Part shown: in pieces, positions 15,011-17,360 of the stretch | How the letters are laid out: every line of letters begins with the position of its first letter | Numbering within the stretch: position 1 is the first letter of the stretch | DNA from: a virus | Virus record (IMG/VR): IMGVR_UViG_3300007344_000351 | Coordinates: 1 to 20,097 of that record | Strand: one strand, 5' to 3' | DNA: 20,097 nucleotides | Notes under the pieces: model-generated | What the model saw: only the letters and a program-made list of their open reading frames with translations | Told to the model about the DNA's origin: nothing | Database searches by the model: none | Program-made: the position numbers and the translations under genes

Positions 15011-16126
15011 ATGAGCGAACCCACGACAATGCGCGACCAGATCGAGGCCGCGTTTGACTCTTCAGAACCGGAAGTCGTCAACGAGCCAGTCAGCGCACCG
15101 GAACCAGCGCCGGAACCAGCGGAAGTCTCGGAACCAGCGGCAGAAAGCGCATCAGCAGAACCACAGCAAGACCTGAACGCGCTGGCTGAAGACGCCAAAC
15201 CGGAGGCCGGCCCCACCCGCGATGAGCAGGGCAGGTTCAAGGCCAAAGAGACTGAGGCGATCCAGCCGGGTCCGAAACCGGGGCCAAAGCAGAACAGTGA
15301 AAGGGCACCGGCATCCTGGCGGCCTGACGTGCGTGAGCACTGGGCGCAACTGCCCGAGCCTGTCAGGGCAGAGGTGCAGCGCCTCGAGGTCGAGCGCAAC
15401 CGGGTCTTGCAGGAGTCTGCTGAGGCTCGCAAGGGCTACGACGCGGTAATGAAGACGATCGCCCCGTATGAGGGCTTTATCCGCGCCGAGAACAGCAACG
15501 CCTTGCAGGCAATCGACAACCTGATGAGCACCGCGGCGCGTTTGCGGACCGGCACGGCACCGGAGCTTGCGCAGCTTGTCTCTGGGCTGATTAACCAGTA
15601 CGGCGTGGGTCGGTTTGGCAAGGGATTTATTGAGATGCTGGACAGCGCCCTGGTGGGCCAGGTTCCGGCAATGGACCCCCAGCAGGCCGCGCTTGATCAG
15701 GTGATCAATCAGCGCCTGGCACCGATGCAGCAAATGTTCAACCAGTTCCAGCAGGCCCAGCAGGCTCAGGAGCAGCGGGTCACGCAGCAGGCTCAGAACG
15801 AGGTCAATACGTTCCTTGAGCGCGCTGAGTTCGGCAATGACGTGCGTGAAGAGATGGCCGACATCATTGAGTCTGCCAGCCGACGCGGGCAGAACATTTC
15901 CTTACTCGACGCTTACAAGAAGGCGTGCATGCTGAACGATAACGTGCGCACGGTGATCTCGCAACGGGCCAAGAATCAAGGCGCGCAGCAGCAGACACAG
16001 GCCGCGCAGCGGGCGCGATCGGCGGCGGTCAGTGTGTCGGGCGGGGCGCCGGTTGGCGGCTTAAAACAAGACCCGACAAATGTTCGCGCGGCAATTGAAG
16101 CGGCGATTGTCCAAACCGCAAGATAA
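15011..16126 (+). CDS. Scaffolding-like head assembly protein (371 aa)
   Basis: Residues 1-100 are a low-complexity Glu/Pro/Ala segment with repeated Ala-Pro-Glu-Pro-like units, then Arg-Asp-Glu-Gln-Gly-Arg-Phe-Lys. The middle is helical with Trp-Arg-Pro-Asp-Val-Arg-Glu-His-Trp near 103-111 and an Arg/Glu-rich coil. The region around 240-265 is a Gln-rich stretch (Gln-Gln-Ala-Gln-Gln-Ala-Gln) that looks coiled-coil, and the C-terminus ends in a basic/helical segment. Scaffolds of P22/T7-type phages have this kind of disordered acidic start and basic helical end, and lie directly upstream of the capsid gene as here. Strength comes from position and composition rather than a catalytic motif. 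Confidence 0.78.
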   Translation: MSEPTTMRDQIEAAFDSSEPEVVNEPVSAPEPAPEPAEVSEPAAESASAEPQQDLNALAEDAKPEAGPTRDEQGRFKAKETEAIQPGPKPGPKQNSERAPASWRPDVREHWAQLPEPVRAEVQRLEVERNRVLQESAEARKGYDAVMKTIAPYEGFIRAENSNALQAIDNLMSTAARLRTGTAPELAQLVSGLINQYGVGRFGKGFIEMLDSALVGQVPAMDPQQAALDQVINQRLAPMQQMFNQFQQAQQAQEQRVTQQAQNEVNTFLERAEFGNDVREEMADIIESASRRGQNISLLDAYKKACMLNDNVRTVISQRAKNQGAQQQTQAAQRARSAAVSVSGGAPVGGLKQDPTNVRAAIEAAIVQTAR

Positions 16127-16132
16127 TGTGGT

Positions 16133-16138
16133 TATAAT
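16133..16138 (+). promoter_or_regulatory. Consensus -10 (TATAAT) at the start of the capsid leader
   Basis: A perfect TATAAT begins seven bases after the scaffold stop. The best -35, TTGTCC (16107-16112), is 20 bases upstream, longer than ideal, and there is no TG extension. A capsid-specific transcript starting near 16145 would begin at the structured leader. Confidence 0.4.
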
Positions 16139-16141
16139 TAC

Positions 16142-16319
16142 ATCAAGGGCAGGGTAACTTGCCTTTGGTGTGCCGTAGCACCAGCCAGCCACCGAAAGCT
16201 CGCAGGAGACGCCGCAAGGGCGTCCCACCTACGACAAGACCGGACTGTCATAGGTCTGTAGGCGCATCTGAACTAGGTGGGCGCAAGCCCGTAGCCAACA
16301 CTCAGATGGAGTTTTCATC
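16142..16319 (+). ncRNA. Structured 5' leader of the capsid gene, two competing folds
   Basis: The 193 bases before the capsid gene have no convincing gene but many perfect or near-perfect helices. These are 16145-16152/16159-16166; 16166-16171/16178-16183; 16208-16213/16219-16224; 16237-16241/16253-16257; and 16279-16282/16287-16290, closed by a GCAA loop. An eight-base helix 16224-16231/16274-16281 excludes the alternative pair 16228-16232/16258-16262 plus 16265-16271/16302-16308. The latter's last base abuts the ribosome site GGAG (16308-16311), so the switch could gate capsid translation (inference). No known RNA class recognised. Confidence 0.55.
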
Positions 16320-17294
16320 ATGGCATTTCCGAATGTATCGGACATCGTCGCAACGACGATCCAGAATCGTTCGCGTCAAATCGCGGACAACGTCACCAAA
16401 AACAACGCCATCCTGGCGAAACTGAACCAGCGCGGCAACGTCCGCACGATCTCGGGCGGTAACACCATCCTGGAAGAGCTTTCGTTTGCTGAGAATGCGA
16501 ACGGTGGCTTCTACAGCGGGTATGACCTCCTGCCGGTCGCTGCACAGGACGTGATCTCGGCTGCCGAGTTTCAGATCAAGCAGTACGCTGTCCCGGTCGT
16601 TATGAGCGGCCTGGAGATGTTGCAGAACAGCGGCAAAGAGCAGTTCATTGACCTGCTGGAAGCTCGGCTGAATGTTGCCGAATCGACGATGGCGAACAAC
16701 CTGTCTGCCTCGATCTATTCGGACGGCACCGGCTCGGGCGGCAAAGAGGTGACTGGTCTGAACGCTGCGGTTCCGAGCGACCCGACCACTGGCACGTACG
16801 GAGGCATCGATCGGGCAACGTGGACGTTCTGGCGGTCCAAGTTGTATGACTTCAGCACCGCCACCGGCGGCAATGCGACCTCTGGCAACATCCAGGCTGG
16901 CATGAACAACCTGTGGGCGCAGACTACCCGTGGTTCTGACCGTGTCGATCTGATCGTCATGGACACCAACTACTGGTCGCTGTATCTGGCCTCGCTCCAG
17001 GCGCAGCAGCGTTTCACCAGCCCCGACACCGGCAACCTCGGCTTCCCGTCCATTAAATTCATGGACGCTGACGTGGTTCTGGATGGCGGCATTGGTGGCT
17101 ACTGCCCGGCGAACACCGGCTTCTTCCTGAACACCAAGTACCTGAAATGGCGCCCGCACAAGGACCGCAACATGGTCCCGCTGTCGCCGAATCGTCGGTA
17201 TGCAATCAACCAGGATGCGGAAGTTCAAATCCTGGCATGGGCGGGCAATCTTTGCGCGTCCGGTGCTCAGTTCCAGGGCCGCATGCAGAACTGA
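16320..17294 (+). CDS. Major capsid protein (324 aa)
   Basis: The capsid subunit builds the head shell. The sequence starts MAFPNVSDIVATTIQNRSRQ, then Leu-Ala-Lys-Leu-Asn-Gln-Arg-Gly-Asn-Val and Gly-Gly-Asn-Thr-Ile-Leu-Glu-Glu-Leu. Later features are Gly-Phe-Tyr-Ser-Gly-Tyr-Asp, Gln-Tyr-Ala-Val-Pro-Val-Val-Met-Ser-Gly, Leu-Ile-Val-Met-Asp-Thr-Asn-Tyr-Trp, and Gly-Gly-Ile-Gly-Gly-Tyr-Cys-Pro at the C-terminal side. These match the non-P22-length (about 320-aa) HK97-fold capsid proteins seen in many siphoviruses and podoviruses. It has no N-terminal scaffold fusion, consistent with the separate scaffold gene upstream. TGGAG precedes the ATG, and a strong terminator follows 30 bases after the stop. 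Confidence 0.86.
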   Translation: MAFPNVSDIVATTIQNRSRQIADNVTKNNAILAKLNQRGNVRTISGGNTILEELSFAENANGGFYSGYDLLPVAAQDVISAAEFQIKQYAVPVVMSGLEMLQNSGKEQFIDLLEARLNVAESTMANNLSASIYSDGTGSGGKEVTGLNAAVPSDPTTGTYGGIDRATWTFWRSKLYDFSTATGGNATSGNIQAGMNNLWAQTTRGSDRVDLIVMDTNYWSLYLASLQAQQRFTSPDTGNLGFPSIKFMDADVVLDGGIGGYCPANTGFFLNTKYLKWRPHKDRNMVPLSPNRRYAINQDAEVQILAWAGNLCASGAQFQGRMQN

Positions 17295-17323
17295 TTTTGG
17301 TGGACCGTCGTGGGTCAGCCTTT

Positions 17324-17360
17324 CCCGAGGGTTGGGCTGGCCCACTCCCTCGGGTTTTTT
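17324..17360 (+). terminator. Rho-independent terminator after the capsid gene
   Basis: CCCGAGGG (17324-17331) pairs with CCCTCGGG (17347-17354), with an inner TGGGC/GCCCA stem, and six T follow. It would raise capsid output relative to the genes behind it if partly read through; the next gene begins 15 bases later. Confidence 0.9.

Follow-up and report, generated by a model that had tools for sequence, protein, structure and literature searches.

A conserved leader RNA of a phage major capsid gene, predicted to bury the ribosome-binding site and possibly to exchange strands during transcription

The capsid transcription unit

The window, by which is meant the whole 20,097-nt stretch of viral DNA analysed here (IMG/VR record IMGVR_UViG_3300007344_000351), contains a major capsid gene separated by 193 nt from the gene upstream of it. 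This interval, which runs from the stop codon at 16126 to the ATG at 16320, had been predicted to be gene-free, and indeed it contains no gene. The features of the locus are listed in Table 1. Pfam and PHROG profile searches gave no match for the upstream gene, which is labelled as scaffold only because it is placed between portal and capsid, like p47 of Mx8. The Mx8 relatives of the capsid have been placed in the same deep podovirus lineage as P22 (PMC10386132).

Table 1. Genes, signals and helices at the capsid locus (window coordinates)
Feature	Position	Strand	Remarks
Upstream gene, presumed scaffold protein	15011..16126	+	Position between portal and capsid
-10 element TATAAT	16133..16138	+	Just 3' of the upstream stop codon; conserved
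H1, 5' hairpin	16139..16172 (16139-16153/16158-16172)	+	Sequence variable, hairpin kept
H2, mini-hairpin GUGC/GCAC	16170..16181 (16170-16173/16178-16181)	+	99% of cells paired, uninformative because H2 is nearly invariant (GUGUGC invariant)
M1 (candidate), CAG-CCA-CCG/CGG-A-CUG	16186..16247 (16186-16194/16241-16247)	+	CCA/A internal loop
P1, closing helix, anti-SD GAAAGCUC/GAGUUUUC	16194..16316 (16194-16201/16309-16316)	+	Predicted to hide the Shine-Dalgarno sequence
P2/M2 hairpin	16204..16230 (16204-16206/16228-16230, 16208-16213/16219-16224)	+	Internal loop A16207/CCA 16225-16227
P3, CCUAC/GUAGG in the window	16228..16262 (16228-16232/16258-16262)	+	5/6 modelled pairs compensated
P3b, CGGACU/GGUUCG or GGUCUG (family consensus hairpin)	16241..16258	+	98% of cells paired
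P4, CAUCUGA/UCAGAUG	16265..16308 (16265-16271/16302-16308)	+	5/7 pairs with compensatory changes
P4 inner hairpin, GGGC-GCAA-GCCC	16279-16282/16287-16290	+	4/4 pairs with compensatory changes
Shine-Dalgarno sequence GGAG of the capsid gene	16308..16311	+	At the P4/P1 junction
Major capsid gene	16320..17294	+	phrog_9953 major head protein, E 9e-119
Terminator 3' of capsid	17310..17360 (17324-17331/17347-17354 + U6)	+	Interleaved helix 17310-17321/17334-17345

Both the TATAAT at the 5' end of the leader and the ribosome site GGAG, as named in the original prediction, were located. A hexamer matching TATAAT at no fewer than five of six positions lies about 30 nt 5' of GGUGUG in 55 of the 61 members of the RNA family described below, compared with about 12% of shuffled upstream sequences. 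The -35 region is weak, with 3-4/6 matches in most members, and the TG of an extended -10 element is often present. Because H1 directly follows the -10 hexamer, the predicted transcription start, which at the usual distance lies near 16145, would fall within the 5' strand of H1.

At the other end of the unit, a terminator-like hairpin with a U-run follows the capsid stop codon by no more than 110 nt in all 50 family members tested (1% of shuffled sequences). A standard scan limited to loops of 3-8, which missed the window's own post-capsid terminator, revealed no terminator-like site on the + strand of 16127-16319, and a transcription attenuator, which would have a terminator hairpin and U-run in the leader, was rejected to that extent.

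The post-capsid terminator has some unusual features of its own. Its hairpin (CCCGAGGG/CCCUCGGG, followed by U6) is interleaved with a 12-bp helix, GUGGGUCAGCCU/GGGCUGGCCCAC, that competes with it, and relatives retain both elements with changed bases, e.g. GUGGGUCUCCC/GGGGAGACCCAC. A competing helix was seen in many of them, at a 6-bp cut-off for which the chance rate is 65%. The arrangement looks like that of a pseudoknotted or antiterminator-controlled terminator. In Stenotrophomonas phage BUCT555 (L082), the capsid gene is preceded by a TTGACA-17-TAGAAT promoter with an inverted repeat, ACACGGCC..GGCCGTGT, in the spacer, which is possibly a repressor operator.

A conserved, strand-specific leader RNA

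Folding of the leader + strand gave -80.7 kcal/mol over 184 nt, a z score of -4.23 relative to dinucleotide shuffles (0/200), whereas the - strand was unremarkable (z -1.55). The original observation of structure is thus right and goes beyond chance. Relatives of the capsid (n=80) were drawn from viral contigs, and it is apparent that most of them share the leader order GUGUGCC..AAGCACC..CAGCCACCG..GCUC..AGGAGACGC..GCGUCCCACCUACG..CGGACUG..GGUUCGCGUAGGC, followed by a hairpin and the Shine-Dalgarno (SD) sequence. A covariance model built from 18 sequences matched 61 of 79 sources, once in each and always with its 3' end at the capsid ATG; the weakest members scored 35-40 bits. The matches never precede a gene other than capsid, and across the matched loci a biosynthetic or transport gene was never found downstream. 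A pattern scan of viral contigs that made no use of the capsid yielded 78 loci, 68 of them true and all 5' of capsid; the remainder consisted of one member truncated at a contig end and of chance matches, and the capsid context was constant wherever a downstream capsid was visible. Exactly one copy was present in each of 12 larger phage records (roughly 30-70 kb), and no copy was found at a second site in three records that lack it before capsid, of which two carry an HNH-like ORF there and one a type-C leader.

Among bacterial genome contigs there was a sole clear member (L246, in a Brevundimonas MAG contig), with the same capsid downstream, which points to an alphaproteobacterium as host, or to a phage contig that was binned with such a genome. 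The weaker scores in bacterial contigs, when inspected, had no capsid downstream.

RNAalifold applied to a plain MAFFT alignment was misled by misaligned helices and returned only 18 pairs, and the covariance model was substituted. In the resulting alignment of 56 distinct sequences, which by its construction is biased toward the modelled structure, 92% of paired cells are complementary, as against 79.4% for shuffled sequences (0/500) and about 40% for a slid control. Changes on both sides of a pair that preserve pairing were observed at 27 of the 41 modelled pairs. Kinship can inflate such counts, so they were repeated by parsimony on an independent capsid-protein tree, which gave 87 compensatory events over the 41 pairs; only 2.4% of the variable column pairs that the model does not include reach two events. 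The covariation that the original prediction would imply for related capsid leaders is therefore present. At paired columns G-U exceeds A-C by 203 to 45 (82 to 42 without P3b, which has a constant G-U), which argues that it is the + strand RNA that is conserved.

In its conserved fold the leader forms a four-way junction, P1-P4, with the 5' hairpin H1 ahead of it. A stable hairpin is predicted at the H1 position in nearly all of the 61 relatives, L016 being an exception, with differing sequence and length. The GUGUGC of H2 has an alternative partner in GCCACC (16188-16193). P1, in which 7/8 pairs show compensatory changes (approximately 11 events on the capsid tree), appears in most single-sequence minimum-free-energy folds and is the least regular helix, with 78% of cells paired and register shifts in some lineages. 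The upper stem of P2 has undergone approximately 25 compensatory events, and its internal-loop bases are at least 98% conserved; the lower part (16204-16206/16228-16230) lies outside the model, and 16204-16230 covaries better than any other unmodelled pair (5 events, 98% of cells paired). The proximal P3 pairs compete with lower P2 and have been lost in lineages where 16230 changed but 16204 followed. In P3b the 5' strand is frozen and variation in the 3' strand is mostly wobble-compatible. Other lineages have CCACA/UGUGG in place of the P4 helix of the window.

Every helix named in the original prediction is complementary in the window, including the 8-bp helix 16224-16231/16274-16281. Three of them are conserved with compensatory changes, namely P3 (91.8% of cells paired), P4 (92.6%) and the GGGC-GCAA-GCCC hairpin (98.6%). 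The 8-bp helix is not: only one of the 56 distinct sequences has it in full, and with 65% of cells paired it does no better than shuffles.

No named RNA class had been recognised in the leader, and the searches bear this out. Rfam 15 gave no match to the window at gathering score, and a permissive search (E<=10) returned only two chance snoRNA scores (best E 3.6). Rfam likewise matched none of 40 loci from relatives, the majority of which carry leaders of other types, and no known riboswitch aptamer, ribosomal-protein site or thermometer from Rfam 15 was matched in the leader. A literature search, conducted largely outside the subscription journals, found no paper on this capsid leader. A superficial likeness of GCCGCAAGGGCG to the twister ribozyme, seen by eye, receives no support from Rfam, and a self-cleaving ribozyme was rejected.

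Judged from these comparisons, the scaffold-capsid gap almost certainly contains a conserved functional RNA. It is best read as an uncatalogued one, a new class of cis-acting leader for translational control, and would constitute a new Rfam entry and a new RNA module.

Burial of the capsid Shine-Dalgarno sequence

In the predicted ensemble of the window the capsid SD is buried by P1 and P4, pairing in P1 with GCUC of the anti-SD strand, and its probability of being unpaired is 0.00. The corresponding median is 0.02 in 52 family members, as compared with 0.38 in 194 other ORFs, which were chosen from the same contigs by a mechanical rule (SD-bearing, at least 100 aa); loci with an SD beyond the search interval were left out of the scoring. 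A rank test gives p 4e-15, which is only indicative, the sequences being related and the values predictions. The SD is paired in the conserved fold, and the leader belongs on that basis among the SD-sequestering leaders.

Leaders of a quite different make-up precede the more distant relatives of the capsid, and in these too the SD is predicted to be hidden (median probability of being unpaired 0.06, n=49). Many of these carry an exact anti-SD, e.g. ACCUCAAGUU..AACUUGAGGU in L421. At least five further scaffold-capsid leader families, none with an Rfam match, were observed (L406-L416, L421-L435, L444-L481, L082 and L083); in many of them an exact anti-SD lies about 40-50 nt upstream, and a GCUNACCYC motif recurs.

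In some phages the leader is replaced by an HNH-like ORF (L017:4393-5004 and L073:4410-4994; also in L071, L072, L076 and L388). In the two loci inspected as ORFs, L017 and L073, it starts approximately 16 nt past the scaffold stop and reaches the capsid start. The label rests on a VDHIVPL motif recognised by eye, and a Pfam search of the ORF gave no hit. The SD is predicted to be open in the four such loci that were scored (L017, L071, L073 and L076), with values of 0.59-0.74, and the terminator downstream of capsid is retained in L017, L073 and L076.

The original view of the leader as a regulatory element of the capsid gene is strongly supported by the covariation, the SD burial, the conserved -10 element and the terminator after capsid. 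The leader very probably acts in cis on capsid translation via the SD, and would lower that translation until it is opened. It probably controls when, or how much, capsid is made; a late-timing element, as first proposed, is possible. The proportion of capsid to scaffold in tailed phages is usually attributed to promoters and coupling. The conserved leader, the other SD-hiding families and the HNH-replaced relatives with an open SD make control of capsid at the RNA level directly testable, and Stenotrophomonas phage BUCT555 and Myxococcus phage Mx8 are isolates in which such tests could be made.

Alternative partners of CGGACUG and models of control

The leader had been proposed to switch between two exclusive folds. 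That kind of architecture is partly supported, whereas the exclusive pair originally put forward fails; the better candidate is the strand 16241-16247, which has two conserved partners. Neither the exclusive helices on this strand nor the helix that actually hides the SD formed part of the original prediction. One partner, with the consensus GGUYYG, lies in P3b and the other in M1. The two helices exclude each other, having 16241-16246 in common, and G16194 is needed by both M1 and P1. Within the family described above (family A) the M1 strands, CAGCCACCG and CGGACUG, are practically invariant, so the case for M1 is drawn from other families and from folding prediction. Across the other families the triplet pair that flanks its internal loop varies with compensation (CAG/CUG, GAG/CUC, GCG/CGU and AUG/CAU). 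The CCA/A internal-loop module is present twice in the leader, in M1 and in P2, and outside the family it was observed 28 times against 1.4 expected, many of these loci being related. A frozen CGGACUG, together with a P3b 3' strand that varies by wobble, is as would be expected of a strand with two partners.

When RNAs ending near 16248 were folded, M1 was dominant in 58 of 62 sequences; in the full-length RNAs it was dominant in none of the 62, P3b had a probability above 0.5 in 45, and P1 was closed in most of the examples inspected. The change of partner is thus predicted, as the idea of a switch would have it, but in the window itself it is pairing with a neighbour, rather than the consensus P3b, that displaces M1: the full-length probability of P3b is 0.01, and GACC/GGUC pairing and P3 are preferred. 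M1 lies approximately 9 kcal/mol above the free full-length ensemble of the window, so that a bound factor would be required to hold it other than during transcription; a bistable M1 in the complete RNA without a ligand is energetically unsupported and was rejected. M1 and most of P1 (16195-16201) might, moreover, form together in a pseudoknot, and would then no longer be exclusive. The leader is possibly a strand-exchange switch, and the chance that the predicted exchange from nascent M1 to the P3 arm is functional is put at slightly less than even.

Our preferred reading, to which we assign a probability of roughly 0.6, is that of a capsid-unit leader with an SD-burying junction, a nascent exchange from M1 to the P3 arm, and opening by a factor. 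The capsid transcription unit would comprise an internal -10 promoter, a 5' hairpin, the folded RNA, the capsid gene and an intrinsic terminator. During transcription, CGGACUG is predicted to pair first with CAGCCACCG, forming M1; as the following strand emerges, M1 would yield to the P3-arm hairpin, and P1 would then close over the SD. In the finished leader, whose fold is indicated by comparison, the P1-P4 junction would bury the SD between P1 and P4, and capsid would be poorly translated until it is opened. High expression is the rule for capsid genes, and an SD hidden this firmly would call for something to open it. Such an opener could be a factor recognising the paired modules, which would either hold the M1 form, with the SD open, or open P1 directly, and capsid synthesis would be matched to the stage of infection or to the amount of free assembly protein. 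An approaching ribosome, or translational coupling, might also suffice. A virion protein (capsid or scaffold) is a natural guess for the factor, since podovirus assembly genes, such as P22 scaffold, are post-transcriptionally regulated and Mx8-type capsids have been placed in that lineage; the identification is tentative.

A more elaborate version, which we regard as speculative, is a co-transcriptional riboregulator in which a phage assembly protein reads the two CCA/A modules on the nascent leader, and CGGACUG either stays with CAGCCACCG, leaving the SD open, or enters the P3 arm, whereupon P1 shuts the SD. The origin of the transcript would add a further layer: in read-through RNA, GGUGUGC would be paired with a CACACC-like strand; transcripts begun at the internal promoter would largely lack this strand, and their GGUGUGC would be freed for pairing with GCCACC.

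The leader has likenesses to several known systems. The phage T7 gene 10 leader is a short leader of a capsid mRNA that leaves the SD open. Like it, the present RNA leads the major capsid gene and has its own promoter, a hairpin at the predicted 5' end and a terminator after capsid; unlike it, it has a conserved junction of 150 nt that buries the SD. The scaffolding protein of P22 is autoregulated post-transcriptionally, and the likeness is one of podovirus virion assembly genes under post-transcriptional control (here predicted), although there the regulated gene is scaffold and here it is capsid. The regulation of P22 scaffold is not known to involve a comparable defined RNA structure. The coat protein operator of MS2 and R17, found at the replicase gene of these ssRNA phages, consists of one small hairpin. 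Both RNAs place a stem with a bulged A close to a virion gene's start codon, whereas here there are two CCA/A internal-loop modules in the leader of a DNA phage. Translational riboswitches and ribosomal-protein leaders share an anti-SD/SD helix, a conserved core and possible exclusive helices with this RNA, but here a phage capsid gene is regulated and no known aptamer or ribosomal-protein site is matched. In its predicted mode of action the leader resembles known SD-sequestering leaders; it would possibly be newer in kind if strand exchange with module binding is real.

Other explanations must be weighed against the preferred reading. The leader could be a static autogenous operator, a rigid junction with no alternative fold that binds phage capsid or scaffold protein, whereby the closed form is stabilised and capsid synthesis stops. 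The conserved unpaired and internal-loop bases (CAGCCACC, GGA and CCA), the two copies of one module, and the occurrence of the leader only ever 5' of the capsid gene are all consistent with this. A closed SD requires no additional repressor, however, and a static operator does not account for a CGGACUG that is frozen though its P3b partner may wobble, or for the M1 predicted in nascent RNA; we consider it unlikely.

A riboswitch sensing a metabolite or ion, with M1 and P2 as the aptamer, would explain the conserved loop bases in a folded core, the SD sequestration (as expression platform) and the candidate exclusive helices. It is improbable, given the limitation of the RNA to one virion gene, the lack of an Rfam aptamer match, and the absence of any biosynthetic or transport gene downstream. 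We give similarly little credence to a leader that, in the manner of T7 gene 10, mainly stabilises and insulates the capsid mRNA at its 5' end, with H1 protecting the message and the structure having no regulatory role. Nearly all members do have H1 where the 5' end is predicted, and the promoter and terminator delimit a separate capsid unit, but the exact conservation of CAGCCACC/CGGACUG and of the CCA loops, as well as the SD burial, would be left unexplained.

A trans-acting or packaging RNA that lies 5' of capsid by coincidence could draw on the presence of its own -10 box and on its length of about 175 nt, close to that of the phi29 pRNA; it is most improbable, as the 3' end is always the capsid ATG, the last helices include the capsid SD, the scan with loops of 3-8 found no terminator separating leader and capsid, and the whole is replaced by the HNH-like ORF in some phages. 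The thermosensor suggested originally has nothing else in its favour than the position of the SD within a helix, and an RNA thermometer is hardly credible: the junction is large and GC-rich, its loop sequence is invariant, the SD is paired neither to a U-run nor in the ROSE/FourU manner, and no Rfam thermometer matches.

Some leaders outside the family carry the module more than once. In family B (L535-L539) and in L590, NNNCCACC..GGANNN is present two or three times. Two of the modules in L590 form local hairpins, and GGACUCC of the module is also complementary to the SD, which would present a choice between module and SD.
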